A stretch of DNA of 64,000 nt from Dermatophagoides farinae (taxonomy: Eukaryota > Arthropoda > Arachnida > Sarcoptiformes > Pyroglyphidae): assembly GCF_024713945.1 (NCBI RefSeq), contig NC_134683.1, positions 374,501-438,500 of the forward strand. The letters are read 5' to 3'. The translations under genes were made by a program, and so were the position numbers. Positions 9,835 through 45,331 of the stretch are shown here, one piece after another. Within the stretch, counting starts at the first letter, position 1. Every line of letters begins with the position of its first letter. The notes under the pieces were generated by a model. It searched no databases and had not been told where the DNA came from. It worked only from the letters and a program-made list of their open reading frames with translations.

Positions 9835-9945
9835 GTAAGTAGAATCATGTCATTTCTCAAGTCTGTTTTGAATGCACGAAAATAATAAAAAAAAAATCCA
9901 ATACGATCGATCCTTTGTTTATTTAGGTTTTGTTTTCAATTTCAG
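9835..9945 (+). promoter_or_regulatory. Candidate 5' UTR intron of the giant gene
   Basis: The donor GTAAGTAG at 9835 follows TTTCTG. An acceptor with a pyrimidine-rich tract ending TTTCAG lies at 9940-9945, giving a 111-bp intron similar in size to others in the window. An alternative acceptor, TTATTATCAG, ends at 10312, 44 nt before the ATG. Transcript evidence would decide between them. Confidence 0.35.
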
Positions 9946-10356
9946 ACCAATTCTGATCGATCGAATCGATAGTTCAAGTTATTATGCTAGGCTTTTTTTT
10001 ATTGAATAATTTAAGCGTGTCGATGTTGATGTCTACCAGTATTTGAGTGTGTGGAAATTAATTTCAATTGTTTTTTTTTCATTTGTTTTTCTCTTGCTCA
10101 ATATATATTGTTCATCGTTGTCGATTGACATTTTGGTGAAAAAATTGTGAAACCAAAAAAAAAATCACTTGAAGAAATTACGCATTATTGTGGTCTATTT
10201 GTGCCTCAAACAAAATAAGTAGATTGATAATTGATTTTTAATCGAAGAAAAAGAAAATTGAATCAATCATTGTCTTTATTTTGATGAAAATACAAAAAAG
10301 CCTTATTATCAGTGAATCATTGTAAAAAAAAATCAATTAATTTTTTTATTTTCGAA

Positions 10357-13300
10357 ATGAGTAATCAACAAAAATTACCCGGAAAAATGGATGATGATGA
10401 AATTATAACCAAAACAAATGAAACAATGAAAACAACAAGTGTTAAAACGACAACAAGTCGTCAGATAACGGCAGAAGAATTGGCACGATTACCCGCTGGT
10501 TCATATACCATTTCCACCGGTAATTCTGGTGGTAGCGATGTTGGCACAACAACAACCACAACACCAGGTATCACAACAATTACTATTGAAAAACAGGGTG
10601 ATCCATTTGTTCTGGAACAATTAAATCGTAATATTTTACAACAACAAATTGATACTCATCCATCATTAACATCATCATCATTACAACAACAAGCATCTGC
10701 TATTGGAGCAGCTGCTGGAACAATAGAATCATCATCAACATCATCACGTCTTCCTAAAATGAATGAAAAAATTGTGATTGAAAGAGCCTTTGATAAACCA
10801 CTTACAAATCAACCACAAGTTATACATCAAAAAACAACAATCACAAATATAACTAGTGGTCCATTATTGATGGCTAAAAGTGATGATGATGGTGGTGGTG
10901 GTGGCGGTAATGTCATGATCGATACAACATCCACGAGAAATGGATCAGATGGTCCAATAACAACAACGCAGAAAATAACTAAAACAATCTTAGATGGTTC
11001 GAACGTAGTGACCACCACTACTACTACAACGACAACAAATGGTTCTGATGATCCAAATTTGATGAAACCAGAAGATTTTATTAATCCAGATCTTCTGACA
11101 CCAGAACAAGCTGCCATTCGTATACAAGCTGCATTTCGCGGTTATGAAGTACGAAAATCATTATCACGTGATCCATCACCAAATTCAATGGAAAATGCAA
11201 AAAATAAAAAGAAACAAAAAACGAAGCCAAAATTACTGAAATCAATTGAAAATAAACCACCGCCAGTATCATCAGTGGATGATAAAGGCAGAAAATTGGA
11301 TGATAATCTACAGATGGCAATCGATAATGCAGCTGAAACTGTTGATCAAGCAATAAAAGATGCTGAAACCGATGGAAATTTTATTGATCGTTTATTTGGA
11401 CGTAAAAAACGTTCATTGAAAAAATCAAATCGACCAGATGTTTTAAGAAAAAAACGAGATATATCAATGGAATCCGATGTTAATGTTAATGTCAATGATG
11501 ATGATAATGAATTGAAATTAAATGTTCACAATGGTGGTGGAACGGGCAAAAACAAACGAAAAAAAGAAAAATTAGCAATGACAAAAAGACATCAGACATT
11601 GGATCGGCCACCAAAAAGTCCACAAACAAAAAAAATTATTATAAAACGTAGCCATTCCCTTGATAAAAGACCTGTTGATCAGAATGATGAGATTGATGAT
11701 AGTAATGAAAAAGATATGGATATCGATCATGATGATGATGATAGTGGTGGCAATATTTTCAAAAGATTATTTGGTAGAAAAAAGAAAAAAGAGACACCAA
11801 CAAAAATATCAACAACAACAACAAGTGGTAATGGTGAACAACCAGAATTACAATGGGAATATAAAACGGGTGATATAAATGCCGAGAATGTTGTCGATAT
11901 TGGAAAATCAAAAGGCGTTGGCCTAATGAAAATTGGTTCAAAAATTAGTCCAAGTGAAACAAATATTCTACGTATTGAAACTAAATCATATTCAGTAAAA
12001 GATCGTGAAGGAAATGTCTCTGGTAATTTTATAATTGAACAAAAAACTGGTGATTTTGATTTGAGGCCTTCTGGTGATGGTAGTGGTGGTGATGGTGGAA
12101 AATGGCCCAAAATGATTGAAAGTGGTGATATAAACGCACGTAAACATGGTGAGTTATTTTTCCTGATGATCTGCTTTTTCAAATGTTTAACCATTTCGGA
12201 ATTTTTTTCTTATTCTCATTTTTTTGAATGTGAAAACAGGAAAACTTGACATGGAAATCCAAGACCCAAATTTAGATGTGAATGGAACAACAACCGACCA
12301 AACAGCTGATCGTTCAAAACGTGGAAAATCTAAAGATCGTGTCAATGTATCAGTTGGTAAAATTAAACTTGGTGGTGAAGTCATTGATTTGAAAATAACG
12401 GATGATAAAACAAATAAATTTGATAAATTCATATCGGCAAGAATGAGTCCAGAACCAGAAGACATGAGAGTAGAATCAGGCAATATTGATGTAAATGTCG
12501 ATGGATCATTTGGGCTGAAAGATCGATTTAGACGTGGAAAATCTAAAGAAAAAGAACCAAAATCCAAAAAGGAAACAAAAGATTTCGAAATAACAATGCC
12601 AAAAATTGACCTAAAAGGACCGAAAGGAGAAATATCTAGCAGCGGTATCGATGTAAATGTTGGCCATGTGGAAGTTGATGCACCAAAAGTTGAAGGTGAT
12701 TTAGATTTGTCATTGAAAAAGAAACGTGGAAAATCCAAAGAAAAAGATGGAAAAAGCTGGGAATTTGGAATGCCAAAATTTGGTTTTAAAGGGCCGAAAG
12801 TTTCTGGTCCTGATGTCGATGTCAACGTGGATATGCCTGATGTTAAATTGAAAGCGCCAAAAATATCTGGCCCTGAAGTGGATGTAAAAGGACCAAAAAT
12901 ATCTGGCGCTGATGTTGATGTGAACGTAGATTTGCCAGATGGTGAAATCGATTTGAACATAAGTCCCAAAGAAAAAGAAGGAAAAGATTGGCAATTGAAA
13001 ATGCCAAAATTTGGAATCAAAGGACCTAAAATATCAGGCTCAGATGTTGATTTGAAATTGGAAAAGCCCGAATTGGATGTAAAAGCACCGAAAGTTGAAG
13101 GAGACATTGATTTATCGATTGATGGCAAAAAACCAGAAGGCAAAGATTGGGAATTTAAAATGCCAAAACTTGGATTCAAAGGACCAAAAATCAGTGGGCC
13201 AGATATTGATATAAAAGGCACAAGTGGAAAAATTTCTGGACCTGAAGTCAATGTTGAAATGCCACAGGTTGATGTTAAAATGCCTGAACTTGAAGGTGAT

Positions 13301-22300: not shown

Positions 22301-25300
22301 AAAGATCCTAAATCAAAAGACGGTAAAGAATGGGAATTTCATTTGCCTAAATTTGGTTTCAAAAGTCCAAGTGATAAAATCAGAGGGCCAGATGTTCCAG
22401 AAGCAAAACCGCTTGAAGGAGAAATTGATATTCATGGACCAAGATTAAAACGTGGAAAATCTGAAGAAAAAGATGTTCGTACATCATCATCACCATCAAA
22501 AGACAAAGAATCACGTAGTTTTCATTTTACATTACCAAGATTTCGTTTGAAAAGTAAAAGTCCAAAAGCAAAATTGACCACTTCTTCACTGTCAGCTGAA
22601 GCACCAGACATTGAATCGCCAGAAATATCTATAAAAGGAAAGAAAAAACTAAAACCAAGTGATCGATCAGCAACATTACCTGCTGGTGATATTGAAGAAT
22701 CTGTTGAAAGTAAAACTGGTACCTTAACGTTTGGTCTTCGAAGTCCATTAAGACGTGCAAAATCCAAATCCAAATCACCTGAAACAAAGAAAAAATTAGA
22801 TAATATTGAAATCGATATTGAAAGTCGAATTGATAAACCAATTGAAGTTATTGATTTGGATATTCGTGATAAACGATCAAAATCCCGTGATCGTGATGTT
22901 CAAACTTCATCACCACCAACAACAACTGATCAATCAAGTGATGGAAAAGGATTTGATATTCATTTGCCAAAATTTGGCGTTAAATCACCGGAAAAAACGA
23001 GTGAAATTAATGTGAGTGCTGGTGATGTTGATATAAAAACCGAAATCGAAAAGAAAGATCTAAAACCGAAACGTAGTAAATCAAAAGAAAAAGAACCAAA
23101 AGATAAAAAGAAAAAAGATGACGATGAAAAAGATGGTGATGAACACAAGAAGCCAAAAGATTTGGATACAGCATTCATTGAAGCGATTGAAACATTAGAA
23201 TCAGGTAGCAAAGATCGATCAACAGGATTGAAATTTCCAAAATTAAGTTTTAAACGTCGCGATAAACGTGATGCAAATTATGATGACGATAGTCGTGGTA
23301 AATCACCTACACCTGGTAAAGAACCAACAAATAATGATGAAGAAAAAGAAAAGAAAAAAACACGTAAATCAAAATCACCAAAAGAAAGAGATGTCGTTGA
23401 TCAAACTACAAAATCACAAGATTTTAATGAAAAAGTTCCCAGCATATCAACAGCTATTTATGGAAAATTTTCTGGAAAACAAAAAATTCCAGAAGGAAGC
23501 TCAGGAATAACAATGCCAGGATTGGGCCGAACAGATAAAGATAAACAAGAATTTTTAAAAGCATATCCACCAATAAAATCGGAAGATGCTGATGAAAAAA
23601 TTATCATTCGTTTTGTATTGCTGAAGTCCGGTAACAATGAACAACCATTGGAAGAAGTTCGATTGGATTCGACAAAATCTGAAAAACAAATCAAAGAAGC
23701 TATACGTTCGGCTATTCAATCTGCCATTTCGAAACCACTCACTGACCAGCAACAAACAAAAATTCTTGCCCGTGTTATTCGTGTGAAATCAGATGGTGAA
23801 AAATTTCTTAAAGAATACGAAATTGATCCAAAAAATTCGGCAGTTTTAGATGATGTACAACAGGCATTGATATCAACAAAACCAACGATGATGATGATGA
23901 TGAAACCAAGTGAATCATCAGATGATCAGACTGAAAAAATCATACTCCAGTCATTGGCAATCAAACCGAAAAATGGTAAAGAAGAAAAAATCGATAGTAT
24001 TGAATTGTCAGCGAGAAATTCAGATCAAGAAATCAAAGACATTCTTTGTAAATTGATTGAAAAATCTTTACCGAAAACTACAAATGAAGCAGATACAACG
24101 GTGGTCATAATCAGAATGATTGCCATTAAACCAAATGGTAATGAGAAAATTATGGAAGAATTTCGTTTGGAACCGAAACATTCACCCGAAGAAACAATGG
24201 AAAAAATTTCACCAAAAATTTTTAAACCATTACGAGCACTATCTATTGATAGAAAAAGACCGAATAAAATTATTCGAATCATTCTACGTAAACCAAATGG
24301 TGATGAACAAGTCGACGATCTAATTATTGATCCAAAAACTAGCGCCAAAGATATTGATGATCTTATCAAAGATAGTATCGAACGGAAATTACCACAAATC
24401 AAAAAAATTAATACAAAAATCATCACCAGAATTATTGATTTAAAACCTGGTGAAGAAGAATCAATGGAAGAATTTGAAATTCAGCCAGAAATAGCCGAGA
24501 AAAATCTTGAATGATGCAATCAAGCGGGCACCACGTATACGATCATCAAAGAAAAAAGATTCCTACGGAAGAATAATAACGAAAATTTTCAAACGTAAAC
24601 CTGACGGAAAAGAAAGTGTCGAAGAAATCATTGAAGATCCTAAAATGACTGGCAAAGATATTGGGGATGACCATCAATTCGGTATGTTTTTTGAGTAATT
24701 TTTGTTGAAAAATATTCAACAAATTTTCATTATTGCAACACAAAAAAAAACTTTCAACAGGTTTCCCAAGTTTTAGATTTAAATTGCCAGAATTTGGTTG
24801 GCAATCATTGGATAGTGTGGAAAAAGATGTGAAAAAACCAAAGAAAATCATACGTATTATATTGAAAACTCCGAATGGACATGAAACAATTGATGATCAA
24901 TATATTGATCCTGATACCGATGTGAAACAAGTGGAAAAATTGTTGATGGAAAAAATCCATTCCAAACTATCGGATGTTCCGGATTCACAAACAAAAATCA
25001 TTGGTAAAATAATTGATTTGAAACCAGGTGACAAGGAAACTATCGAAGAATTTGAACTTGATTCAGATATAGCAAAAAAAGATTTGAAAAATGTTCTCGA
25101 ACAAACGCCAAGAACAAAAACAACGAAACAAAAAGATCCATTGGGAAGAATTATAACGAAAATTTTCCGTCGAAAACCAGATGGTAAAGAAACCATTGAA
25201 GAACATCTGGAAGATCCAAAAGAAACTGGTCGTGATATTGGTGATGATACACTTGGTAAGTTCGTCTATTCAAAATTCTGATTTGAATTGACATTTGAAA

Positions 25301-28300
25301 TTTTTCCATTCTTTCAAAGGTTTTCCAAGTTTTAAAATTAAAATGCCTGAATTTGGTTGGCGATCCGATAGCGTGGAAAAAGATTCGAAAAAACCAAAGA
25401 AAATCTTGAGAATTGTTTTACGAAAACCCGATGGTAATGAAATTGTCGACGATTTGTTGGTTGATCCACAAACCAGCCCGAAAGATGTTGATCGAATGAT
25501 CAAGGAACGAATCAAAGCGAAATTACCAGAAATTAAAGATTCAAATACAATGATTATTGGTAAAGTAATCGATTTGAAACCTGGTGATGAAGAGAAAATC
25601 GAAGAATTTGAAGCCGACTTAGAATCAGCTAAAAAGAATTTGGATGATGCAATTAAACGTGCACCAAAACAGAAAACAATCAAAAAGAAAGATTCTTTGG
25701 GTAAAATTATAACGAAAATTTTTCGACGAAAACCTGATGGTAAAGAAACAATCGAAGAATTTGTCGAGGATCCTAAACAAACGGGTAAAGATATTGGTGA
25801 TGATATATTTGGTAAAGCACCGATCGTTTGAATCAAATCACGCAGAATTACTAATGTATTTTCTTTCCATTCCCCATCACGAATAGCACAACTGGATAAA
25901 TTTCGAACCGAAATACCCGAATTGATTCTACACAAACAAATAGATGATCCAAAAAAACCACGGAAAATTATTCGAGTCCTAATACAAAAACCAAATGGTG
26001 ATGAATCCATTGAAGATGTTGTTGTTGATCTGAAAACCAATCCAAAAGATGTGGATAAAATTTCAAAGGATTTATTACAGAAAAAATTGCCTGAAATTAA
26101 AGAACCAAATGCAAAAATTATTTGCAAAATAATTGATTTGAAACCTGGTGAAGAAGAAACAACCGAAGAATTCGAGACTGATACAGAAATGGCACGAAAA
26201 AATCTGGAAGATGCAATGAAAAAAGCACCACGAAAAAAAACAACAAAAAAGAAGGATCCATTGGGTAAAATCATCACGAAAATTTTCAAACGTAAACCAG
26301 ACGGCAAAGAAATGGTCGAAGAATTTGTTGAAGATCCAAAAATTACCGGTCGAGAAATTGGTGATGAAACGATGGGTAAGACTAATGAATTTTGATTATT
26401 TCTTGGTGTAAAATTTGTCTACTTTTTTGCTTAGGTGTTCCGGATAAATTCAAAATCAAAAAGCCTGAATTATTCAGCAAAAGTGGTGATGATGACCACG
26501 ATAAAGCAAAACAAAAACAACCGAAAAAAATTATTCGAATCATTTTGAGAAAACCAAATGGTGATGAACAAGTGGAAGATTTGCACATCGATCCGGGCAC
26601 TAGTGGAAAAGATGTAGAAAAAGCGATAAAAGATGAGATTCAGAAGAAATTACCACAAATCAAAGATCCTAATATGAAAATTATCAGCAAAATTATCGAT
26701 ACGAAACCTGGTGAAGAAGAATCGGTTGAAGAATTTGAAACTGATCCAGAAACAGCCAGGAAAAATCTCGACGATGCCATAAAAAAAGCACCACGAACCA
26801 AAACATCAAAAAAGAAAGATTCATTAGGGAAAATTATCACCAAGGTTTTCAAAAGAAAACCAGATGGAAAAGAAACAGTTGAAGAGTTCATTGAAGATCC
26901 AAAAGTTACTGGCAAAGATATCGGTGATGATGATACGATCGGTAAACTTCCCGAAGAATTAAAAAAAGAGATGCCGGAAGTTTTTGGGAAACCACACGAT
27001 GAAGAAAACATAAGAGAAAAACGGCCAAAGAAAATTATTCGAATCATTCTTCGTAAACCAAATGGTGATGAATCAATCGAAGATATCGAAGTCGATCATG
27101 CAACCAGTCCTAAAGATGTCGATAAAGCAATTAAAGAAGCTATTCAGAAAAAATTACCCGATATCAAAGATCCAAAAACGCAAATCGTCTCGAAAGTAAT
27201 CGACACCAAACCGGATGAAGAAGAAACGACCGACGAATTCGAAACTGACCCAGAAACAGCACGAAAAAATCTCGATGATGTAATGGAAAAAGCGCCACGA
27301 AAGAAAACAACAAAAAAGAAGGATCCATTGGGTAAAATCATCACGAAAATTTTCAAACGTAAACCAGATGGCAAAGAAACTGTCGAAGAATTCATTGAAG
27401 ATCCAAAAATGACTGGCAAAGACATTGGAGATGACGATATGCCAAAACCAATAAGTGAATCAGTGACCCGAATGACCGATCCAACTGGAAAGACAACCAC
27501 ACGAATCGTTCGTGAAATGCCTGATGGAACGAAATCCACACAAGAAATCATTGAAGAACCTGAAAAGAAAGTTACCACTGAAAAACTTGAATCTATCGAA
27601 CGGAAACCAGAAAAAGAAAAATCAGCTGCAACTGAACTTTCGAAACGACCAAAAAGTCCAAAAGATGATCCGGCTAAACAAAAATCTGCTATTCTTCGAA
27701 AATCAAAATCACCAGAAAAACCTGATGTGGATACAAAGAAAAAGAAATCGAAAAAAATAATTCGAGTCGTTCTACGAAAACCAAACGGTGAAGAATCAAT
27801 AGAAGATGTAGATATTGATCAAAAGGCAACACCAAAAGATGTCGATAAAGCAATGAAAGATGCATTGAAAAGAAAACTTTCACAAATCAAAGATCCGAAA
27901 ACAAAAATCATCACTCAAATAATTGATTCGAAACCTGGTGAAATGGAATCAATTGAAGAATTTGAGACTGATCCAGAAATTGTCAAGAAAAATCTTAATG
28001 ATGTTCTTAAAAAAGCAGTGCTAACAAAAATTACCAAGAATAAAGATCCATCAGGTAAAATTCGTATTCAAATATTCAAAAGAAAACCTGATGGTAAAGA
28101 AATTCATGAAGAATATGTTGAAGATCCAAAAGTAACCGGCAAAGATATTGGTGATGATGATACTTTGGGTAAATTGCCTGATGAATTACAAAAGAAAATG
28201 TCCGAAATCATGGGAAAATTTGATGGTAAAATCCAAGAACCTGAAAAGAAAGATGAACCTCATCATCATCCAGAGAAAGTAAAATCATCCATTCCTGAAG

Positions 28301-31300
28301 TTTCATCAAAAAAACCAGATAGTCCGAAACAAAAACCATCTACATTGCCTGAAATGTTAAAATCATCTGATGTTGCCGATGATGAACATTCGAAACAAAA
28401 GAAATCGAAAAAAATAATAAGAATTATTCTACGAAAACCAAATGGTGATGAACAAGTGGAAGATTTATTGATTGATACCGATACCAAACCAGAAGACGTA
28501 GATGAAACAATTAAAAAGGAATTGAGAAAATCATTGAATAAAATTGATGATCCTGTGAATGCAAAAATCATAACCAAAATCATCGACAAAAAACCAGGTG
28601 AAGAAGAAACAACCGAAGAATTTGAAACTGATTCTGAATCAGTGAAAAAAAATCTGGATGAAGTGATGAAAAAAGCGCCAAGAACAAAGATAACGAAACG
28701 GAAAGATCCATTTGGTAAAATTATAACGAAAATTCTGCGACGAAAACCAAATGGTGAAGAAGAAACAGTGGAAGAATTCATTGAGGATCCAAAACAAACG
28801 GGCAAAGATATTGGAGATGATGACGATATAGATCGTCTTCGTATTGAACCGAAAATATCAACACAACCAGCTAAACGTATTGATGATTCGATGGGAAAAA
28901 TGCCTAAAAAAATTATTCGAATAATTCTACGAAAACCAAATGGTGATGAATCAGTGGAACAATTGTTTTTGGATCCCAGCACACGACCTGAAGATGTTGA
29001 TGATACAATGAAAGAAGAAATTCAAAACGTAATGAATAAAATTGATGATCCAAATACACGAATTATCTTTAAAATAATTGATTCAAAACCATGTGATGAA
29101 GAATCGATCGAAGAATTCGAAACTGATCCTGAATCATTGAAAACGAACATTAATGAAGCGATTAGAAAATTGCCGCGAACAAAAACCAATCGCAAAAAGA
29201 ATCAAATGGGTAAAATTGTTACGAAAATTTTTCGACGAAAACCAGATGGTAAAGAAGAAATTATCGATGAATTTGTTGAAGATCCAAAACAAACTGGTAA
29301 AGATATTGGCGATGACGACATTCCGAAACCAATTATTGAATCGATGAGCAAATTGGTCGATCCAACAGGCAGTCGTCCACTTGATTCCGAAATGGCTAAA
29401 ATGCCTGAAATATTAAAACGTTTTGATGTAAAAGAACAAAGAGAAAAACGACCAAAGAAAATTATTCGAATCATCCTTCGTAAACCAAATGGGGATGAAT
29501 CAATCGAAGATGTTGAAATCAATCCTGCAACCAGTCCTAAAGATGTCGATAAAGCAATTAAAGATGCCATTCAGAAAAAATTGCCCGATATCAATGATCC
29601 AAAAACGCAAATCGTCTCGAAAGTAATCGACACCAAACCAGGTGAAGAAGAAACGACCGAAGAATTCGAAACTGACCCAGAAACAGCACGAAAAAATCTC
29701 GATGATGTAATGGAAAAAGCGCCACGAAAGAAAACAACAAAAAAGAAAGATCCATTGGGTAAAATCATTACGAAAATTTTCAAACGTAAACCAGATGGCA
29801 AAGAAACTGTTGAAGAATTCGTTGAAGATCCAAAAGTGACTGGCAAAGACATTGGTGATGACGCCATGCCAAAACCAATAAGTGAATCAGTGACCCGAAT
29901 GACCGATCCAACTGGAAAGACAACCACACGAATCGTTCGTGAAATGCCTGATGGAACAAAATCCATACAAGAAATCATTGAAGAACCTGAAAAGAAAGAT
30001 GAATTAAAACCAAAGAAAATGGAAGGCCGGCATGATGAGAAACCTTCACCGAAAGATACTGTTGACAACGTTTTAGGTCAATTTTCTGATCAACCATCGA
30101 AAGAGACCATTAGAACGTTGGAAGAGTTATCGAAACCATTACCAGATGATATTCGTGAAGGTAAATCGATTTTCATTTATGATTCAATCAAACAATGAAC
30201 ATTTTAATTTTAGGTGAACAAAAATCAACAAAAACAACACCAACTGCAGTTATGGAGAAACCATTTGGATCAATAACAATGTCCACTGATCATCCATCAC
30301 AATTACCATCATTTGAACCAATGGATACCAAGGCAACTACTAAAACATCATCAATTGACAAACCTACTAAAAGTGCAACAGCAGCTCCAACATTGATCTC
30401 GCCACAGAAACCGATCATCGACGATAATAAAGGTAGGTTGCCTGATTTTATTTATCGTGCTTCAAACTTTCCAAAAAAATACTTTCCTTTTAAATGCTAA
30501 TTCTGATTCCACAAAAATACAAACACAACAGTGATAGGGAATAATCATTTCAATTTAATAATAGAAAATAGTGTTAGAAAATACAAAAAAAAAGAATTCA
30601 AAATTGCTAAAACAAAAAAATTTTTACAGAACAAAAACAAGTTACACAATCGATGCTGCCAGATGTAGAGAAATTTGCCGATCCAGATAAAATGATTATC
30701 GTTGCTGAACAAAAAGAACCACAAATTCAACAAAAGAAACACGCAGAACAAACGAAAGAATTACCTCGACAATCATCAGCTATAACTGGTGACGATGATG
30801 ATGAATGGATTAAATGTTTACAATCTGAAATCGTGCATGAGGATATTGAAAAAGAAAAGGTTAAAAAAGTGATGGAAACTGCTTCAAAACCATTGGAGAA
30901 GAAATCTGTAAAAGTTGTACTTATGAAACCAGATGGCCAAGAAACAATGGAAGAAGTGGAAATTGATTCCCACACTGATCCACGTGATATGAATGAAGCT
31001 GTCAAAAAAGTTTTACAAAAATTATTGCCCAAAGCCAAGGAAATACCAATGACCAAAATTGTTGCACGGCTTTGTCGACAAAAATCTACTGATGAATGTA
31101 TTGAAGAATTCGAAACTGATGTTGATAATTTGAACAATATTGAAAATTTCGATGAAATCATCAAGAATATACCGAAAACAACGATCAAACGAATTAAAGA
31201 TCCACGTGGAAATATCATCACTAGAGTGATAAAAGAAGATCCTGATGGTACAAAATTGATTGAAGAATCTATTGATGATCCAAAAACACCAGCCGGGCAT

Positions 31301-34300
31301 ATTGATCCGGTTTGTGAAGAAATTATTCGACCAAAACGTTTTGTACCAAAATTTTATGATGATAATGATGAAGGAATATTGAATCCAATTGTAGAAGAAT
31401 TGCCTATGGATGAAGAATCGGACAAACGAATATTCGATGAACCTTCGAAGAAACCAGACATGAAAGAATCATCGTCTGTAAAACCAGCACCAAAACCAGA
31501 AGATACAAAAGATGATAATAAAGAATCTGAAACAAAACCGATTGATGAAAAAGCTGTACCAAAAGATTTATCCGTTTCAGCAGATATAAAAGAGCCACAA
31601 AAACTTGTTGCTGGAGTTATTTATGATGATGATGACAATGAAGAGAAAATAGAAAAACCAATAGATGACATTGGTAGTAGCAAACATTCAGGTGATATAA
31701 CAACTGATCAACATCCTGAAAAAGTAGAAACGCAAAAAGCAGATAACTTAATTGAAAAAGATCAAAAATCGTTGAATGATGATGGATCAATAAGCATGAA
31801 ACCAGAAAAAGAATCTTTTATTAAACCAGATAATCAAACTAAACCTGGAGATAAAACTATTGTAACTGGTATATCAACAACTGAAAAACCATTGAATGAT
31901 CAGACAGCCACTACTGCTCAACCTGATGATAAAAAATCAAGTAATCTGTTGAAACCTGGTGATGACAAAATATCATCATCAGAATTGTCAAAGAAAGCTG
32001 TCGATGAAATGATGAAACCTTCTGATAAGCCTGAAGATCAAATTCATTTAAAACCAATGGATGATGTGAAAGAATCAACGAAAACTAAACAAGAAAAATT
32101 TGAAGAAATTAAAGTTTCAAAATCTGAAAATAAAAAACCTGAAATATTGGATAAACCAGAAGAAAAGACTGAATCAGCCGATGATGATGTTAAACCAATT
32201 GATGATGGGAAAAAGCTTGACAAACCTAAAGATGAACACGCCAAACAACCAACAAATCAAATAAAAACGACGGATAAACCATTCATTGATGACAAAAAAC
32301 CCGATAGCATTGAAATTCAATCAAAAGATTTGATTTCTATACCTAGTGATGATGAATCAAGAAAAAAACCAGCTGACGACAAACCAACAAAAGCTGATGA
32401 GGAGAAACCAAAAAAACCAGATGATAAATCTGATAACAGCAAATCGATATCGCAGCCAATTGTTGAAACCATTGTTGCAGACCAAAAACCAGTAAAAGAT
32501 TTCAGTAAGGTGTCATCAAAAACAGGTGAGCAAATTTTATCAAAAACAATTGATCATCCAGTGGTATTAGTTAGTGAACAAACAAAACCAACAAAAGAAC
32601 AACATGATGATGTAATTACAAAATCACAAATTTCACCAGCAGATACAAAAGACATACCAGATACCAAAACAGAACAAACAACAACACTAGACACGATTAC
32701 AGAAGACACACATCACAAACCAGACGAAACAAAAGACACGCCAAAAAAATCCATAGATTCATTGGATAAATCTGATCAAAAAACTGATGAAATCAAAAAA
32801 CCGTTGGATTCTGAGAAATCTGAAGGAATCGCTGAGAAATCAATGGAAAAAGATCAACACGAAGATGAAACGATTGGTGAATTCAGTATTGATCCTAAAC
32901 AGCCGGAAAAAATTGCAAATGAAGTTATGGAAAAGGCAATTAAACCAGAAAAAGCTAAAAACGATGCTGAAAAACAACAAAAAATTGTCTTACGACTGAT
33001 CATCATCAGACCAGATGGTAGTGAACAAATCGAAGATCATGAAGTAGATTACGAAAAATCCGATAAAGATATTGATGAAATCGTTAAAGATATTTTACGA
33101 CAAACACCTAAAAAATTGAAAGATCCAAAAGATCGACCAATTCTTAAAATTTTACGCAGAAAATCGAAACAAAAATCAACGACGGAAAATATACTGAAAT
33201 CACCAACAAAACAAGAACCAGATGATGATAAGGATGAACATAAACCAAAAATGAATGAAAAAAATTTATCTGACAAGCCAACGATAAGTGATGACGATAA
33301 ACAACCACAGCAATCGCAACAACAACAGAAAGACAGTGGTGGTTCATCGAAACCGTCTGATGATGAATCGCTGAAGAGTAGTAAAGATGAAGAAACAGAA
33401 ACGATTGGTGAATTTAAAATTGATCCAAAACAATCACCAGAAAAAATGGCTAAAGAAATAATGAAAAAATTTATCAAATCCCCAAAGAAGAAAATGAAAG
33501 ATACGAAACATGATAATCATCAGTATGTTTTCCGATTTCTCAAACCAGATGTCAATAATGATGAATCATTGGATGATGAGGAACACGTCATTCAAACGAA
33601 TAAATCAGATAAAGATGTTGAGAAGAAAATCAAAGAACTACTGAAACAAGTACCGAAGAAATTTAAAGATCAAAAAATTGTTTTCAAAATTTTTCGACGT
33701 CAAAAATCTTTGAAACCAGAAATCATGCCCGAAGAAAAAGAAGTTGGCAAGTCATCTATTGATGAGCAGAAGAAACCGAGCGATGTAAAAACAAAATCTC
33801 TGGATGAACCAAAAGAAACAGATAAACCAGAACAATCGCCAATCGATGAAGTTGAAAAACCTTCCAAAGATGAAAAATCAGAAGAAATGAAAAGACAAAA
33901 AGTTGTGGAAGAAATATTCCAACCTAAACATGTTGACGATACAGAATTATCATTGAAATTACCTAAATCATTGGATAAACCAATACAAGAACTTGGTGCG
34001 ATTCTCAAAGATAATGCAGCTAAAGTTCTTGATGATTTGTTGAAAAAATCATCACAAATTGATGATAAAAATGATGAAAAACCAATCGATGATCAAACGA
34101 AGAAATGCTCACCATCATCAACGACAAGTGATGAAATGCAAAAAGATTCAAAAAAATCCAATGATGAAAAAGCTGATTTTGAAAAAGTTTTCAATGAAAG
34201 TGTCGATGCATTGGGTTCAGTATTGAAAACAAATATTGGAAATATGTTGAATCAATTTATTGATACAAAGCCTGAAGAATCTAATAAAAGAGATGTTGAT

Positions 34301-37300
34301 GATAACAAAAAACAATCGGATGATCCAATTAAGCCACCTGTTGATATCGGTGAATCGAAACCGGATAAAATATCAAAACCTGAAGTTCATGATTCTCAAA
34401 AGCTTGGTGATCAGACCAAACTGACAGACAAGCCATCGAAGCCTGAAAATGAATCAAAGAAGTTAGATCAAATCAAGCCAGCAGACAAAGTAATCGAACC
34501 GGATGACAAATCTAAATTACCTAAGGATGATGAACAAATCAAATTGGCGGATAAAATTGAACCGAAAACCATGGTAACCGAACCGAAAGATGAATTTCAA
34601 AAGCCTAGTGATGTGATAATCGAATCGGCTTCCAAAGAAAAAGATCTACCTGTCGAAGATCTTTCTAAATCCATCGCTGATGAATATTCGTCAACAGAAC
34701 AAAATAAACTGTCCGCTGATGATAGTACAAAATTACATAAATCTTTGCCAAAAGATGAAGCACAAGTTACAAGAGATAAACGTTTACTTACTGAAGAAGA
34801 ATTGAAAGACAAAGACAAAAAACCAAATGATCAAAAAGTTGATGATGTAGCTAAAAAACCAACATTACCAGCTACTAAATTAAGTGACACTGAAAAATCA
34901 GCTGATGAAACTAAAAAACATCATGAATTGCAGTCAAGCGATATTGTTAAAGAATCGACGAAACTTGATGATCAAATGAAACCAGATGAAATCAAATCAT
35001 CAAAAGACAAGGCATTCAAACCGGAAGATGATTTGAAAAGACCTGTCGATCAAGTCCAACCAAAAGATGAAAAGAAGCCTGAAAATGAATCGAAAAAAAT
35101 TGTCGATCAATTCAAAACAGTCGATATGACCAAACCGACAGAAGAAGCATCAAAACCCAAAGATGAACACAAAAAATCTGATGATCAAATGAAACCAGAA
35201 GATAAATCTGAGTCAAAAGATAAGCCATCAAAGCATGAAGATGAATTAAAGAAACCTGTTGATGAAATCAAACCAAAAGATAAGGTATCTAAGCCGGAAG
35301 ATGACTCGAAAAAAACTGGTGATCAAATCAAACCAATCGATATGACCAAATCTTCGGAAAAAACATCAGAACCTAAGGATAAATCCAAAAAATCTGATGA
35401 TAAAGTCAAACCAGGCGATGAAGTTGAACCAAAAAATGAGATGCCTGAAGATACATCAAAGAAACCTGATGATCAAATCAAGTTAGACGATGTGGCCAAA
35501 TCGAAGGACAAAAAATCAGATTTCGATGATAAATCAAAGAAACCAGAAGAAAAGATTGAACCAAAAGAAAACGTATCTGAGCTAAAAGATGAATTAAAAA
35601 TGCCAGATGATCAGGTTAAACCAATGGATAATGTATCACAATCAGAAGATGAATCAAAGAAACCTGATTCTGAAACCAAACAAGAAGATAAAAGTGAGCC
35701 AAAACAAGAGCTATTCAGTTCTAAAGATGACAAAACAGATGATAAAAAACCGAAAAAATCAAAAGAAGTTGAACCAAATGAAAAAGAAATAAAATCTTCT
35801 CAAAAGCTTATTGATGAAATTCAGCAAACAGAAATTCCAAAAATGGAAAAGTCAGAGTCAACGAAACCGAATGATGTTTTGGGTGAAAAATCGGATAAAG
35901 TCGAACCGTCTGATAAAACAAAAAAACCAGATGATGATGTATCAGCCTTCTTAAAACCACTAACTGTTGACAATCAGAAACCGATGGATGAAACAAAAAA
36001 ACTAATTGATGACTCGAAAGACCAAGTTTCAAAATCCATCGATGATGACAATAAAGTGCCAATAAAAATAACAGATGAACCATCGAAAAAACCTATGGAA
36101 AAAATCTTTGAACAAGAAGATAAGAAACTCAAACAATCAACACCAGAAAAGAAACCAGAAGAAAAAGAAAAGCCTATTGAATCATCGGAAACAAAAGATA
36201 AACCGATCATTACAAGTGGCGAACCTAAAGATAAAACTAAATCATCAGGTGATACTCAGAAACAACCGAAAACCGAATTAACTGATGATGCAAAGAAATT
36301 GGTTGATGAAATCAAACTAAAAACAGAAGAGGATAAAAAACCGCTTGATGATACAAAAATGAAACCAGAAACCGAAGTTAAACTAATGGAACAACTCAAA
36401 GAACCGAAATCAGATGATAAAAAACCAATAACGGTAGATGATGAACCTAAAAAAATGGAACTATTAAAGACAACATCGACAAAACCGGAGGATAAAACTG
36501 ATGGTACCGTAAAACCAAAAGAATCAAAACCAGACGACAAACCAGAAAATAAATCAGAGAAACAAAAACCAATAGTAGAAATGCCAGAAGATAATGTTGA
36601 GGCTAAAAAACCAGATGAAAATAAATCGGAATCCAAAATTATAATTGAAAAATCTCCTACCGATCATCAATCTACAGCAAAAGCAAAAGATCCATTGACC
36701 AATGTCATTGATCAATCTATCGATAAGATTGGTTCGTTGATTAAAGATAATGCCAGTGATTTGCTGGGAAAAGTTTTCGGAAAACCACCACAAGAAGTGA
36801 CCGAAGAGAAAATCATCCCAGTGTTTAAAGATTGTGATCTGGATCTAAAACCAATTTCTGAGGTGACCAAATCCGATAATGAAATAAAACCCAAAGAAAT
36901 TGAGGAAATAAAACCACCGGAAAAAGAAAAAGACCAGAAAAAATTAGAAAAATCAACAAAATCAAAAGATGGCAAACCAGATGGCGAAAAATCATCGAAA
37001 ACCACCGATAATAAATCTGATGACAAAAAATCAAAAGATTTAGATCCAAAATCAGAACCAGAAAAAGTGTCTGATAAGAAAATAAAATCAGAAAGTAGTA
37101 TGCCATCAATATCTGATATTGAACAACAACAAAAACAACCAACATTGATTCTAAAAGCAGATGATGATGACAGTAAACCTCAACAACAACAACAACAATT
37201 ACAAGGTAAAATATATCACCATTATTGTAGATTACAGCAGTAGTAGTAGTAGTAACATTAGTTGGTAGATGATTTAAATGTCCATTTATCATCATCATCC

Positions 37301-40300
37301 CGTCATCAACGTTTCCCCAAATTCATCATCATTATATAGTTATGTGTGTAATTTTTATGTGACAATTACAACCATCATCCATCCATTCATTCATAAATCG
37401 ATTTGTTTTATTCAATTGATTCTTGTGTGTTTTCGCTACTACTAATCAATAATTTGTATATTTTGTTTTTCATAAAATTCATTCATTCATTTAAATGAAA
37501 ATTCAATTTTTAAAATTTACAAAATTATTAATTGAATTCTCATCATCACATCACCATTGTCACCAGAAAAAAAAATTTATTCATGAAAAAACGCCCACAT
37601 TTCCAATTTTAAACGAAAAAAATTTTGTATAGTGATGCCCCCACATTAATATTCATTCATTATCATTTTTTCCCATTCATTCATTTCTCATCTCATCTTT
37701 TTCATCATTTTTTTTCATTTTCATTTCACATTTCCATCTTTTTTTTCTCATCATTTTTCTAATTTGATTTATTTGCAAAAGATTTTTTTTTCTAAAATTT
37801 TAATTTTATTCTCCTTGTATAGTTAAAGATGAACCAAAACAAATAAAATCAGATGAGCCATCCATTGGTCATGATGATGGTGATAAACGTAAACCATCAA
37901 AACAATTGGAACAGCCTGAAATTATCAAACGTACAGCATTGAATGAACCAGAACAGCTAAAGAAACAAGAGCCAATTAGTAGTGATGGTCGACAAATTGA
38001 TCCAAAATCTTTGAATGAATTCAAAGATGTTTTTGATGAAATGGCCGGCAAAAAACCTCAATCATGTATACCTCAGCAAACATCCCGATCAAGTCCAGAA
38101 AGTGAACCATCGGTAACACAACAATCGGATACAACAACAACAAAACCTGGTGTTGTTGTCAAAGATTACAAAGGTAATATTGTCTGTGAATATATGGGTA
38201 AGCCTGGTGACATTGATGTCAAACCTGTGAAAACAATCGAAAAAGAAGACTCGACAATTACACGGGCATTTAGTCCTGATAAAGATGACAAAGATGATCT
38301 AATTAAAATACAAGTGAAACCATTTGAAGAAAAAATTACCCGTGCATTTAGTCCAGAAAAACAGGAGAAATTATCGATTGAAAAAACAATTGAACCAACA
38401 TCGAAAGTATTGCAACCTGTTGATGACAAAATTACCCGTGCTTTTAGTTCAGAAAAGGATGACACTGAAAAAGATGATTGGATTGAAGGTTTAAAATCCG
38501 ATATACTACCATCCACCGATGAAGATGAAACAAGTAAAAAATCACCGAAAAAAGATGATCCATCAAAAGAAAGATTTAGTCCAACAAAATCACCAATCGA
38601 TGATAAAATTGGTAAACGAGATGAGCCTTCTGATCAACCTGATGATGACGATGATGAACCGGTTGAAGAAATGACCATTGATCCAAAACAGCCACAAAAA
38701 CAAGCTAATGATATTGTCGCAAAAACTAAAAAAGCTAAAGATCCAAACAAACGTCTTATCATCCGTTTCATTATACGACGACCTGATGGTGAATCAATTG
38801 AAGAGATGGATATTGATCCACAAACACCCGATGAAGATATTGATCAAATTATTCGCGATCTTTTACAAGATATGCCATCTAAGATTAAAGATCCGAAAAA
38901 AGATAAAATTACCTTCAAAATTTTTAAACGTCGACAACATGAACCAACAGAAGATGAATCGATTGGTGAATTTGATATTGATCCAAAAAATCCGGAACGA
39001 ATAGCTGACGAAATTATTACAAAGACAATAAAACCGGAAAAAGCCCAATCAAAGAAAGATCAAAAACAAAAGATTGTACTACGATTTGTAATCGTTAAAC
39101 CGGATGGTAGTCAAGCAATTGAAGATCGTATCGTTGATCCCTCTGCATCCGACAAACAAGTTGATGAAATTGTTCGTGAAATACTACGGCAAGCACCGAA
39201 AAAACTGAAAGATCCGAAAGATAAACTAAAGTTCAAAGTTCTTCGACGAAAACCAAAAATTAAAAATGATCAACAAATGATTGGATCGAAAACAACAGCT
39301 TCGGATCCATTGAGAAAAGATAAACCAGAAACTCATCGATCTGAACTAGCAGATTTGATGAAATCAGCTGATGATGAAGATGAACTGGTAGATGAAATTG
39401 ATATTGATCCAAAACAACCAGAAAAAAATGTCGATGAAATTATTAAAAAGACAACAAAATCAAAAGAACCAAATAAACGTATTGTAATTCGTTTTGTTGT
39501 AAGATCATTGGAAGGAACATCAATCGAAGAAATGGATATCGATCCAGAAACACCTGATGAAGATATTGATCAAATTATTCTTGAACTTTTACGTGATGCT
39601 CCGACACGCGTTAAAGATCCAGAAAATGATAAAATTTCATTTAAAATTCTTAAACGTAAACAAAGTGCACCGACCGAAGATGAACAAATCGGTGAATTTG
39701 ATATCGATCCGAAAAATCCAGAACGAATAGCTAATGAAATCATCAAAAAGGCAATAAAACCGGAAAAAGCCCAATCAAAGAAAGATCCAAAACAAAAAAT
39801 TGTACTGCGATTTGTAATCGTTAAACCGGATGGTAGTCAAGCAATTGAAGATCGTGTTATGGATCCTGATACATGTGATAAAGATGCTGATGAAATTATT
39901 CGAGAAATTCTTCGGCAAACACCGAAAAAATTACGTCATCCAAACGATCGATCAATTTTCCGTGTTCTTCGACGAAAACCAATCAAAGATGTATCTGATG
40001 CTACAAAACCGGAACCGAAATCGGCTGAATCTAAAATTCTAATGAAAAAAGATGCGAAAAAAACAATGGAAAATCAAAAATTTCCCAAACAAGAGCTTGA
40101 ACAAGAAGTGGAAGAAGAAATAGAGGAGGAAGAAGGACCAACTGACGATGAACCAGTTGAAGAATTCGATATCGATCAAAAATCACCAATGAAAAATGTC
40201 GCTGAAATTGTAGGTAAAACAATAAATGCGAAAGAACCAGGCAAACGTGTTGTTTTACGTTTTATAATTCGTACACCTGATGAAGGTGATTCGATTGAAG

Positions 40301-43300
40301 AGATGGAGATTGATCCAGAAACATCGGATGAAGATTTAGATGAAATTATTCGGGAATTATTGAATGATTCTCCATCAAAAATACAAGATCCAAAGAAGGA
40401 TAAAATTATTTTCAAAATAATGAAACGTACACCAAAAGATCAGGAACCTACAGAAGATGAACAGATTGCGGAATTTAATATTGATCCAAAATCACCGGAA
40501 AAAATTGCTAAGGATATTATTTCGAAAGCAATTCAACCGTTAACATTGAAACCATCAAAAGATCCACGAGAAAGAATTGTTCTTCGTTTTATTGTACGTC
40601 GTCCTGATGGCAGTGAATCGATTGAAGAATTAGTCATTGATCCACGTATGACCGATAATGATATCGAGGGTGTTATCCGTGATATTCTCAGACAAACACC
40701 AGGAAAACTTCGTGATCCTCGGGATAAAACAATATTGCGAGTAATAAATCGCCAACCACAACAAAACAAACAACAACCAAAACCTCAGATTGACGATGAA
40801 CAACAAAAAATCACCAGACCAACATCAAAACCAATGAGTGAAACACAAAAACCATCAAAATCACGTATGAACGACGAAGAAGAACCAGTTGGTGATTTTG
40901 AAATTGATCCGCAAAAACCAGAGAAAGATATTGATCAAATTATTCAGAAAATAACATCACGTGCACGTGATCCAACAAAAAAATTGATTCTTCGTTTAAT
41001 ACGTCAAATTCCAGATCGATCAGATTTGGTTGAAGAACATTTAATTCAATCAGAAACTCCTGAAAGTGATATTGCCAAGATTCTTGGTCAATTACCAAAA
41101 AAAGTAACCGATACACGTGAAAAAACATTGATAAATTTCGTTTTAAAACCACGTGACAATCATCGTTCACCCGATGATCTGCCATTAACACGTGATCCAA
41201 ATGATAATGTTATCATACGTATTGTGGTTCAAAAACCAAATAATGAACGTTCGATTGAAGAATTTCAATTACCAACTGGCTCATCGAAAAAAGATATTGA
41301 AAATCTGATCCGACAGGTGAATCAATCAACAACACCAAAAATTAAAGAACCAAACACACAAATCATTACTCGGGTAGTGAAACAAACACCAGATGGTCAA
41401 GAATCGATAAAAGAATACCATGTTGATCAACGTACAGCACCCACTGATATTGATGAAATAATTAGAAAAAATATTCGACCAAAACAACGGCGTATAATTA
41501 CCAGGGTAGTGATACGTAAACCAGATGGCACTGAAACAGTGGAAGAAATTGAAATTGATCCAGATGAAGAAAATATCGACGAAGTTATTCGCCGTAAACT
41601 TGGTGAAACAGCGTCAAAAATTACTGGTCCTGCAAAAATTTCCACTAGATTAATACGACAAAAACCAGATGGTAGTGAAGAAGAAGAAGAAGATCTGGAT
41701 CTATATCCAGAAGATAATGAATCTGATGACGATAATTACGATAATGATGAACAATTGGAAGAATTTGAAATTGATCCAAAATCACCAGAAAAAATAATCG
41801 ATAGTATTGTTAATCGAATGTTGAGATCAAAAGTTCCTGATCGACGATTAGTTATTCGTTATGTAATTATTCGACCAGAAGAAGGTGAATTAATTGAAGA
41901 AATGATTGTTGATCCAAGAACAACAGATGGTGAAATCCGTGAAATTATTCATGAGATATTGATGGAAACACCATCGAAAATTAAAGATCCACGAGATCGT
42001 GTTGTATTTCGAATTATTCATCGTCCATCGAAACATGAACAACAACAACAAACAGCAGAAGATCAAGATGAAACAATTGGTGAATTTGAAATTAATCCAA
42101 AATTTCCAGAAACAAATGCTGATGAAATAATTCATCGTGCAACAACAAGTCAACAACGTCAACCTAAAGAACAAATCATAATTCGTTTTATAATCATTCG
42201 TCCTGGATTCGGAGAACAAATTGAAGAACTTGAAATTGATCCACAATTAGATGACGATAATATTGGTCATATAATACGTGATATGTTACGACAAGCACCA
42301 GCGAAACTACGTGATCCCCAGGACCGAATTGTTTTTGCTATCGTAAAACGAAAACGTAAACAAAAACAACAAAAAACACGTGATATTGATGATATGATTC
42401 GTCAAGCTATACGTTCATCAGTACCGAAACCAAGTTGTCGATTGTCAACAACAGGTGCTGAAGAAACGATTGGTGAAATTGAAATTATTCCTGAAACAAG
42501 TCAACAAGCAATCGGTGATTTTGTTCGTCGTACTATACATTCACCTAATTCACGAATTGGTGATTCAAATAATGTTCGTATTATCATACGAATTTTATCA
42601 CGAAAATCAACAATTGGTGATGTTGATGATTTAATTGAACAATTCGAAATGAGTCCAGCAACAGGTGAAAAAGATATTGATGCTGTTGTACGAAAAATTT
42701 TAAGAACAATTACAACAAGATCACCAGAACCAAATGAAAGAATTATATTACGAATTATAAAACGTCGACAAGGTAGTCAAGATTCATTGGATGATGAACC
42801 AGAATCAGCTACCGGTGATGATATTGATGAAATTATACGGAGATCATTGAAAACACAAACATCAACTATTCGTGATCCAAGTGGTAAAATTATCACACGG
42901 GTTGTACGGTTAAAACCTGGTGGTGAAGAACCGGTGAAAGAAGTAGAAATGGATCCAAAATGTACCGAGGGTGATATTGATGAAATCATACGTGAAGCCA
43001 TTCAAACAAGTCGTAATAAATATCCAAGTGGTAAAATGATCACACGGATTATTCGTATGAAATCTGGTGGTGAAGAATCGATTGAAGAATTGGCTATGGA
43101 TCCAGAAACGCCACAAGTTGATCTAGATGATATGATACGTAAAGCTGTTCGTACAACAATATCAAGAATTAAAGATTCGAATAGTAAAATGATTACACGA
43201 ATTGTACGGCTTAAACCTGGTGGTTCTGAATCAATTGAAGAATTGGAAGTGGATCCAGAACTGCAAGAAGAAGAAAACGGTGATAATAATGATATTCGAG

Positions 43301-44756
43301 AAAAAAATCGTCAACATTTACCATATACGAAAATCATTACACGTATAGTTAGACAAAATGCCGATGATCGTGAAGAAATCTTGGAAGAATTTGAAACTAT
43401 ACCGGAATCTGCTGATTCCGATATTGATGATGCAATACGTGAATCAATATTATCGGCCACATCATTAATACAGGATCCAAATACAAAAATTATTACACGT
43501 GTAATTCGGTTGAAACCTTGTGGTGAAAAATCCATTGAAGAATTTGAAATGGATCCTGAATGTTCGGATATTGATTCCGATATTGATGATGCTATACGTA
43601 AAGCAATACGTACACGATCATTGACGATAAAAGATTCAACTGGGAAAATAATAACACGTGTTGTGCGAAAAAAATCTGACGGACAAGAATCGATTGAAGA
43701 TTTGGATGATGAACAACAGCAATCAGCAAAAACACATGAACAGCCTGAAGGTATTGGACAATATGTACGAAAAACTATTCGTGATACAATTTCGCCAGTA
43801 AAAGATAAAGCTGGAGATTTAATATCTCGTGCATTTAAACAACAACAACATCAGATGACGACGACTACATTGACAACAACACAAACAGCTGGAATAAAAC
43901 ATCGACCAGCGACAAAAACAACAACAAATGAATCATTTGGTTTTATGCGTAAAACGTATAGTTCAGCTGTGAAAGAACAACCTAGAGATATGAAAGGAAA
44001 AAGTCCACCATTCCGTGCTGGATTACCAACTCGTGACATTCATGGTAATATTATTCCATCGACAACAACAACAACAACAAGAATTTCGAAACCAACAACC
44101 ACACATTCGATTACTGCTGAAGCAAGACGCCCTGAACCACGAAATACTAGTCTATCAATTCAGGAACGTGTTGGAAATAAATTTGGAAAGTTTGTCACAC
44201 CATCCTCATCATCGGCATCATCATCATCATTATCGTCACGAGATTCACGTTCTAAATCGAAAACACCACCCACGGCTGATAATCGACCACGAATGACATT
44301 CAGGTAGACTAAAGTTTGATTTTTTTGAAATAATTTTCTATAATCACCTATTTTCAATTTAGTTTGAGATCAACACCTGAACGTGAATCACAAACTGGAC
44401 AAACGAAAATTTCACGGCCATCCATTCAAATAAAAGTATGATGAATTATAAATTCAGATGAATCTTTGAATTTAAATTTAACTTTTTTTTTCTTAAAAAT
44501 ATAGAAATCCAGCGATTCAAAAGGATTCATCAAAGTAGATGAACAGCAGCAACAACAAACTCAGCAACATGGTACCCGTATACCAGTGTTTACTAGTCCC
44601 GGTGGTGGTGGTGTTTTAAAAGATTCCACATCATTATCACCAAAAGCAATACAACAGGAAATTGGTAATGATTTCGATAGCAGTAATCCGAAAACAAGAC
44701 GACGTAATAATCGTACAACGACGACGACGACGACAAATAAACAACAGAAGAAATAA
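10357..44756 (+). CDS. Giant AHNAK-like modular scaffold protein, ~11,011 residues, 11 coding exons
   Basis: Exons (all GT...AG): 10357-12148, 12240-24681, 24761-25255, 25320-25811, 25887-26375, 26435-30160, 30214-30432, 30630-37205, 37823-44303, 44363-44435, 44505-44756. Frames join at every junction. The only break is one surplus base near 24510 that makes a TGA at 24512. Without it the sum is 33,036 nt. The first in-frame ATG (10357) follows stop-rich leader sequence. Order of domains: Thr/Ser-rich N-terminus, IQ motif (residues 256-266), AHNAK-like repeats (about 715-3970), a Lys/Ser linker, an unrecognised ~50-residue module array (from about 4380), a charged disordered exon (about 6550-8743), a second module array (about 9025-10700), and a Gln-rich basic tail. 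No signal peptide or membrane segment is present, so a cytoplasmic or cortical scaffold is inferred by analogy with AHNAK/desmoyokin. True orthology is unproven. It is tail to tail with the ZYG11-like gene. Confidence 0.88.
11122..11154 (+). other. IQ calmodulin-binding motif (exon 1 of giant gene)
   Basis: The residues IQAAFRGYEVR match the IQxxxRGxxxR consensus at residues 256-266, within an Ala/Arg-rich helix preceded by TPEQAA. In other proteins this motif binds calmodulin or EF-hand light chains, usually without Ca2+. It is the only IQ motif I see in the protein. Confidence 0.85.
11380..11790 (+). other. Paired basic LFGRKK motifs in giant protein exon 1
   Basis: RLFGRKKR (about 11390-11415) and RLFGRKKK (about 11755-11785) repeat a hydrophobic-basic sequence about 120 residues apart, each followed by Lys-rich residues and preceded by acidic stretches. 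They could be membrane-phospholipid binding or nuclear-localisation segments. This is inference from composition. Confidence 0.5.
16915..17650 (+). repeat. Internal segmental duplication, copy A (partner 20998-21733)
   Basis: About 735 bp here recur nearly unchanged at 20998-21733, with a constant offset of 4083 bp (1361 codons). I checked the offset at 16981, 17281 and 17581. The few differences are mostly single bases. The frame-preserving offset shows multi-unit duplication or gene conversion inside the AHNAK-like array. Confidence 0.85.
20998..21733 (+). repeat. Internal segmental duplication, copy B (partner 16915-17650)
   Basis: Second copy of the ~735-bp multi-repeat segment, 4083 bp downstream of copy A and in the same reading frame. 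It differs at scattered positions, for example in a GASGK versus GPSGT stretch. Confidence 0.85.
24506..24514 (+). other. Apparent +1 frameshift producing a premature TGA
   Basis: The frame reads AEKNL then GAA TGA. In the sister blocks the same place reads AAT CTT/CTC GAT GAT (NLDDA or NLDDV). Here it is CTT GAATGAT, one A more than expected, and the frame continues seamlessly one base later as DAIKRAPR. No splice signals explain it. The coding frame is otherwise intact for 20 kb downstream, so an assembly or sequencing indel or a recent mutation is likelier than an old pseudogene. Confidence 0.8.
24761..26375 (+). repeat. Three tandem equal-sized phase-1 exons (exons 3-5)
   Basis: Exons 24761-25255 (495 nt), 25320-25811 (492 nt) and 25887-26375 (489 nt) are each bounded by phase-1 introns. 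Each encodes about 163-165 residues and carries one three-part module block ending in a GKDIGDD- or GREIGDE-like sequence. Exons 3 and 4 both start (G)FPSF followed by (L/M)PEFGW. This is the signature of tandem exon duplication, and any one exon can be skipped without changing frame. Confidence 0.85.
27013..27568 (+). repeat. Internal duplication in exon 6, copy A (partner 29440-29995)
   Basis: A ~555-bp module block plus its ISESVTRMTDPTGKTTTRIV tail recurs at 29440-29995, with a constant 2427-bp (809-codon) offset checked at both ends. Identity is very high. Confidence 0.8.
29440..29995 (+). repeat. Internal duplication in exon 6, copy B (partner 27013-27568)
   Basis: Second copy, 2427 bp downstream of copy A. 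Besides scattered substitutions, the end differs: copy A leads into VTTEKLES, copy B into DELKPKK. Confidence 0.8.
31400..37205 (+). other. Charged Lys/Asp/Glu/Pro/Ser-rich disordered region of giant protein
   Basis: Most of exon 8 encodes loosely repeated short phrases such as KPEDDSKKPDDQIKPKDK. It is almost free of aromatic residues and Cys and has near-balanced charge. Composition resembles PEVK-type elastic or entropic-spring segments, with fewer Val. Two diverged modules (about 32960-33170 and 33510-33700) and three short helix motifs interrupt it. A flexible spacer between the two module arrays is inferred. Confidence 0.65.
33950..36800 (+). repeat. Three copies of a ~30-residue amphipathic helix motif
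   Basis: Within the disordered exon, three hydrophobic islands share the pattern (I/V)xxLGx(I/V)LKxNxxxxLxxx(L/F). They are PIQELGAILKDNAAKVLDDL (about 33975-34035), SVDALGSVLKTNIGNMLNQF (about 34200-34260) and SIDKIGSLIKDNASDLLGKV (about 36715-36775). The heptad-like spacing of Leu/Ile/Val suggests amphipathic helices able to pair or to bind a partner. Confidence 0.65.
37206..37822 (+). other. Largest intron of the giant gene (617 bp)
   Basis: Donor GTAAAA after ...TTACAAG, acceptor TTGTATAG before TTAAAGATG. It joins phase 1 (G|TT, Val). The intron is T-rich with ATTCATTC runs and is the only intron above 200 bp in the gene. Confidence 0.85.
38250..38470 (+). other. Three ITRAFS(P/S)(D/E)K short motifs
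   Basis: ITRAFSPDK, ITRAFSPEK and ITRAFSSEK occur at about 38257, 38335 and 38431, spaced about 26-32 residues apart in an acidic linker. A related ISRAFK lies near 43830. The SP core could be a proline-directed phosphosite. The function is unknown. Confidence 0.6.
38660..43710 (+). repeat. Second array of ~50-residue modules (exon 9)
   Basis: Tandem relatives of the first array with a different consensus: (I/V)(I/V)(L/I)RF(I/V)I(R/V)(R/K)PDG, then SIEEMDIDP, a DxDIDxI(I/L)RE(L/I)L helix-like stretch, and P.K(I/L)KDP. Toward the 3' end they become simpler KIITR(I/V)VRLKPGGEE-SIEE-LEMDPE units ending near 43710. Divergence between units is much greater than in the first array, suggesting that this array is older or less homogenised. 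Confidence 0.8.
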
Positions 44757-44806: not shown

Positions 44807-45180
44807 AAACGCCTTTTTTCGGATGACGACTATATATCATTGACGATTATTCAATACCTGTTGTATTCATCATACATTTATAAATATAGAATCTTTGTAT
44901 CATTTTCATTCTCCAACAACCACCACTATACTCATCTTATCATTTTTTTTCACACGATTTTCATCATTTTCATTCCATCATCACTATATTTTCTCTTTGT
45001 TTTTATTTTTGCCTTTTTTCATTTCTTGTACTGAATTATTATTATCTATTCTATATATAAAAGAATTTGAATGAACATTAATTCATGTTCGCTGTACATT
45101 CAAAGTTGATGTCCAGTTGATGCCTTGTAGATGTCCAGTTTAAGTATTGGCAATGATCAATGTCAATTTACTTTTTTTTG

Positions 45181-45312: not shown

Positions 45313-45331
45313 TAAAAAAATTGTAAAATTG

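Follow-up and report, generated by a model that had tools for sequence, protein, structure and literature searches.

We identified one apparent very large gene in a 64,000-nt stretch of the Dermatophagoides farinae genome (contig NC_134683.1, positions 374501–438500; hereafter, the window). It occupies positions 10357–44756 of the + strand, and its reading as a single gene on the scale of titin or AHNAK, as a preliminary description of the locus had proposed, is well supported by the arrangement of its repeats. One module family spans exons 2–9, a single exon houses both the AHNAK-like array and the first modules, and AHNAK-like cores stand at the beginning of exons 3 and 4.

The five biggest + strand frames between 10.3 and 44.3 kb measure 653, 4,107, 1,269, 2,210 and 2,167 residues from stop to stop, an exceptional length given DNA of 31–38% GC. 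Exons were placed by chaining open frames at GT–AG splice sites, which arrived at the same 11 exons and the same sum of 33,037 nt (a multiple of three plus one base) as the preliminary description. The predicted protein of about 11,011 residues was likewise recovered, as 11,011 when the two-piece reading carries an X at the frame change described below. All ten introns (53–617 nt) have GT–AG ends, with introns 1–8 in phase 1, intron 9 in phase 2 and intron 10 in phase 0, and the third codon position has the lowest GC in 11 of 11 exons. The ten introns contain no AATAAA or ATTAAA (300 dinucleotide shuffles gave a mean of 5.5 and never reached 0), an absence that applies to introns only, given that the A-rich exons contain 39 AATAAA. 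The first poly(A) hexamer 3′ of the stop codon lies at 44771.

Exon 1 (10357–12148; 1,792 nt) holds the start codon, a Ser/Thr/Gln-rich N-terminus, an IQ motif (AAIRIQAAFRGYEVRK; 11110–11175, + strand) and two RLFGRKK segments. The one IQ motif claimed previously does match Pfam PF00612 (E = 0.0022), but its 18 bits fall short of the Pfam cut-off of 20.3, making it a sub-threshold match. Together with two DRFRRGKSKEK segments in exon 2, the RLFGRKK segments make four short basic stretches. Against the PDB, exon 1 gave a best sequence match of E = 0.79. GAP-43 (neuromodulin) and insect igloo, membrane-associated proteins with an IQ motif and basic sequence, likewise carry the IQ near the N-terminus, with Lys/Ser-rich sequence after it; the mite protein is far bigger, and the likeness is stated for the IQ plus Lys/Ser-rich stretch.

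Exon 2 (12240–24681; 12,442 nt) contains the AHNAK-like array, a basic Ser/Lys region, the first six modules and the frame change. Defined by the extent of matches to one 200-residue stretch, the array runs from 12467 to 22540 (+ strand). Its main period is 65 residues, and residues 600–4200 contain 53 cores of MPKFGF type. It scored 264 against an approximate AHNAK unit. Shuffling the unit 300 times gave a mean of 64 and no score above 105, reversing it gave 105, and 100 shuffled arrays reached at most 102; with a unit that is only approximate, the score offers a lead and does not test descent. The other parts of the mite protein scored 45–58 with the same unit. By sequence, the best PDB match of an array stretch was phycoerythrin alpha (E = 0.036). 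AHNAK-like cores also open exons 3 and 4, so that the module half holds four of them (mean 0.33, maximum 3 in 500 shuffles), although this control flatters the result because the core pattern was widened after the starts of these exons had been seen. In the predicted protein, these cores tie both kinds of repeat together 3′ of the frame change.

The second kind of repeat is a module with a 39-residue core, for which a hidden Markov model (HMM), grown from ten seeds on the same protein against which it was scored, found 73 matches in residues 4384–10713. Every match had a domain E value of 4.1e-6 or better with this HMM grown on these copies; 20 shuffled proteins gave none and the reversed protein gave three at E ≤ 0.01. 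Six matches lie in exon 2 and three in each of exons 3 (24761–25255; 495 nt), 4 (25320–25811; 492 nt) and 5 (25887–26375; 489 nt), each of which comprises a single three-module unit. Exon 6 (26435–30160; 3,726 nt) has 20 matches, arranged as six three-module units and two partial modules. The modules probably multiplied by exon duplication, given that the three-module units sit between phase-1 introns. Exon 7 (30214–30432; 219 nt) is a Thr/Ser/Pro-rich linker. In exon 8 (30630–37205; 6,576 nt), seven matches (30911–33643) are accompanied by a Lys/Asp/Glu/Ser/Pro-rich charged spacer that makes up the remainder. Exon 9 (37823–44303; 6,481 nt) carries 31 matches (38647–43731) and then a Ser/Thr-rich basic tail, followed by exon 10 (44363–44435; 73 nt) and exon 11 (44505–44756; 252 nt), which ends in the stop codon TAA; all exons are on the + strand. 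The preliminary description had distinguished two arrays of an unrecognised module. The module does go unrecognised in the databases searched, but a single HMM finds both arrays, which rules out two unrelated modules and leaves one family.

The predicted structure of a three-module unit was of good confidence (pLDDT 88.9, pTM 0.79), and its strand–strand–helix pattern recurs in a low-confidence model of a seven-module stretch (pLDDT 67.9, pTM 0.37). No family stood out and no clear match emerged when the three-module model was compared with the PDB by fold, and the best PDB match of the module profile by sequence had E = 0.61. No Pfam match to the module exceeded a shown cut-off: 18 module members matched 36 families at E ≤ 1, with YbaB the best among the 25 listed without cut-offs (0.00048; three members), and both matches of the first member were below cut-off. 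We took these weak matches as chance because they are scattered over unrelated families. All listed Pfam matches to the exons were likewise under their cut-offs, and NCBIfam, applied to three pieces of the protein (P0001, P0003 and P0005), returned one match, to RimP (E = 2.2e-5; 24.3 bits against a cut-off of 188). Three scans of prokaryote and viral contigs gave 115, 11 and 28 pattern stretches, none of them confirmed, and a fourth gave 0. Judged by these comparisons, the module arrays and the architecture appear to lack a counterpart in Pfam, NCBIfam (three pieces), the PDB and prokaryote or viral contigs, and to that extent the earlier statement that the combination matches no known protein stands; relatives may be present in eukaryote protein databases as predictions that bear the AHNAK name.

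Within the 62.4-Mb genome, matches at E ≤ 0.01 to the exon-9 module stretch (at least 41), the array stretch (at least 37) and exon 1 (at least one) all fall in this gene (41/41, 37/37 and 1/1), the counts being lower bounds given that only the best candidates were scored. Among the nine three-module units, pN was below pS in every one of the 36 pairs. The same held for 662 of the 666 pairs formed by 37 AHNAK-like units (from 48 intervals between 49 cores, after dropping 11 with spacing outside 48–70 residues) and for 87 of the 91 pairs formed by 14 hand-chosen exon-9 modules (medians 0.58 and 0.41). Synonymous divergence was near saturation in all three sets.

The preliminary description had placed the surplus base of the exon sum by repeat alignment. 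The whole model changes frame once, by one base, at an in-frame TGA (24512–24514, + strand) within exon 2 and inside a module. We kept this site unmended, as in the assembly, and entered it as X in the protein. The interrupted module is recognised across the TGA once the two sides are translated in their respective frames, both flanking modules are intact and 6,322 residues follow downstream without a further stop. Either an erroneous base or an allele in the assembly is the likeliest cause of the frame change. A recent truncating mutation, real and fixed, would instead limit the product to the first 4,688 residues, with the downstream exons in decay. The stop is indeed present in the assembly and its site lies outside any long homopolymer run, but the 6,322 downstream residues have not acquired a second stop and the downstream units show pN < pS, albeit as a reflection of past selection, making truncation very unlikely. 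An unseen intron bypassing the TGA was rejected: there are 20 candidates of 45–350 nt, and all 12 listed (163–349 nt) delete conserved module sequence. The four candidates with the best donors score 4/6 and have 3–5 pyrimidines in the 15 positions before the acceptor, compared with donor scores of 3–6 and 6–13 pyrimidines for the ten introns of the model. The RNA fold just 3′ of the TGA is nothing unusual (z = −0.37) and lends no support to programmed frameshifting; +1 frameshifting past the TGA, in which only a fraction of ribosomes would make the full giant, is a remote possibility.

The same TGA could mark the border between two or more adjacent genes. An AHNAK-like gene would stop there (~24.51 kb) or within exon 8, and a gene of modules would start downstream, for example from intron 8, which is the longest intron (617 nt) and has a TATA-type hexamer at 37333. 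Modules are nevertheless found on both sides of the TGA, with the interrupted one resuming in the other frame, and exons 3–6 are alike in boundary phase and in their place in the repeat. At the downstream candidate border, the coding composition of exon 9 starts at its acceptor, 218 nt 5′ of the first in-frame ATG, and the lack of AATAAA and ATTAAA in the introns also speaks against separate genes. We consider such a division quite unlikely and retain the single 11-exon gene.

Several features surround this gene. The ~10 kb on its 5′ side (1–10287) has no frame of ≥150 residues and several simple repeats, and might be an extended regulatory or 5′ region. Opposite the AHNAK-like array, the − strand carries long open frames (12187–21981), the largest of 744 residues, probably a shadow of array codon use. 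On the 3′ side, the sequence around GAACCAAGTGCTGCCATC (45180–45400) resembles an inverted repeat to the eye and is possibly a small mobile element. The adjoining gene on the opposite strand (46726–49323, −) encodes a ZER1-like protein with leucine-rich repeats and a ZER1 C-terminal domain, and farther along are an Aa_trans family amino acid transporter (56024–58000, −) and an SLC52 family riboflavin transporter in two open pieces (60640–62303, −). The genome also holds a relative of group-2 allergens that is similar, though not identical, to Der p 2 and Der f 2.

Proteins of the AHNAK/periaxin family have an S100A10/annexin A2 binding segment at the C-terminus. Their defining part is an N-terminal PDZ domain, according to passages of two papers (PMC10682155 and PMC7072810). 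The genome yielded 67 PDZ matches at E ≤ 0.001, none of them in the window, and Pfam scans of the exons revealed none; a weak PDZ in an exon farther upstream is possible. Given that no PDZ was found at the locus, we do not file the gene as AHNAK, and the earlier label of an AHNAK-like array finds support in the repeat motif (264 versus ≤105 with the approximate unit) but does not extend to the PDZ. The apparent likeness to the vertebrate giant scaffolds AHNAK, AHNAK2 and periaxin consists of a long Pro/Lys/Asp/Gly/Val-rich repeat array with MPKF and GPK/GPD motifs. As a passage of PMC10682155 describes for the family, the array sits in one giant exon (here exon 2, 12,442 nt) between non-repetitive ends. 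The mite protein differs in its main period, 65 residues as opposed to about 128 or 165 in passages on AHNAK, and in its IQ segment, dozens of modules and downstream charged spacer. A true AHNAK/periaxin orthologue acting, as AHNAK does, at calcium channels, in membrane repair and in annexin/S100 complexes would account for the similarity to the approximate unit beyond composition and for the single giant exon. It is nonetheless unlikely in view of the PDZ matches elsewhere in the genome, the different period and the passages of AHNAK literature, which do not mention such module arrays. Giant AHNAK-like scaffolds are an already known kind. Among arthropods, a passage of PMC9391574 describes a transcript of the crayfish Pacifastacus leniusculus, from a haematopoietic-tissue cell cluster, whose annotation is neuroblast differentiation-associated protein AHNAK. 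A locust paper (PMC6881432) has a single mention of AHNAK, and no statement on AHNAK in arthropods was found in PMC2923515 or PMC11573180. Among the titles and abstract openings listed, none linked AHNAK to mites including Dermatophagoides, and none described a mite gene of this kind.

The elastic muscle giants titin, twitchin/projectin and sallimus resemble the mite protein in scale and in combining small folded units with a charged spacer of Pro/Lys/Glu type, but no Ig, Fn3 or kinase domain of theirs was matched in the mite protein by Pfam. Neither Ig nor Fn3 appeared at E ≤ 1 in pieces P0001, P0002, P0003 and P0005, or at E ≤ 0.1 in the final part of exon 2 and in exons 3, 4, 5, 7, 8 and 11. 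The gene is therefore not filed as titin either, and it may function like AHNAK or like titin.

Pfam scans recognised no catalytic domain and no actin-, membrane- or cytoskeleton-binding domain, and reading the predicted protein by eye revealed no signal peptide or membrane span, suggesting a cytoplasmic location. A cytoskeletal or cortical scaffold may reasonably be inferred from the sequence, and we give roughly even chances to the fuller proposal that this one 11-exon gene encodes a cytoplasmic giant of ~11,000 residues acting as a Ca2+-sensitive elastic tether or scaffold. In such a protein, the N-terminal IQ segment would bind calmodulin or a light chain, and the four basic segments (RLFGRKK and DRFRRGKSKEK) would anchor the protein at an acidic membrane or the cortex. 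The AHNAK-like array could present an extended surface for multivalent binding, the three-module units may serve as small folded beads, able to engage partners or to give way under load, and an entropic spring might be provided by the Lys/Asp/Glu/Pro spacer. The whole would form a long elastic tether or scaffold, sensitive to Ca2+, beneath the membrane of muscle or epithelium.

Automatic annotation easily splits giant genes, chiefly where one base disrupts the frame. Huge proteins themselves are not rare, with >41,000 proteins over 5,000 residues in UniProtKB according to the abstract of PMC11573180. We tentatively suggest, at distinctly less than even chances, that the strand–strand–helix module represents a new domain family, born and multiplied inside this gene in a mite lineage and joined to a pre-vertebrate AHNAK-type array, giving an elastic scaffold of a class distinct from both AHNAK and titin. 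If the locus is transcribed as one unit, the mite has a scaffold of 11,000 residues whose module exceeds none of the Pfam cut-offs shown. This makes it possible to ask whether AHNAK-type arrays beyond vertebrates reflect descent or convergence, and which folded spring units other than Ig and spectrin domains arthropods employ.
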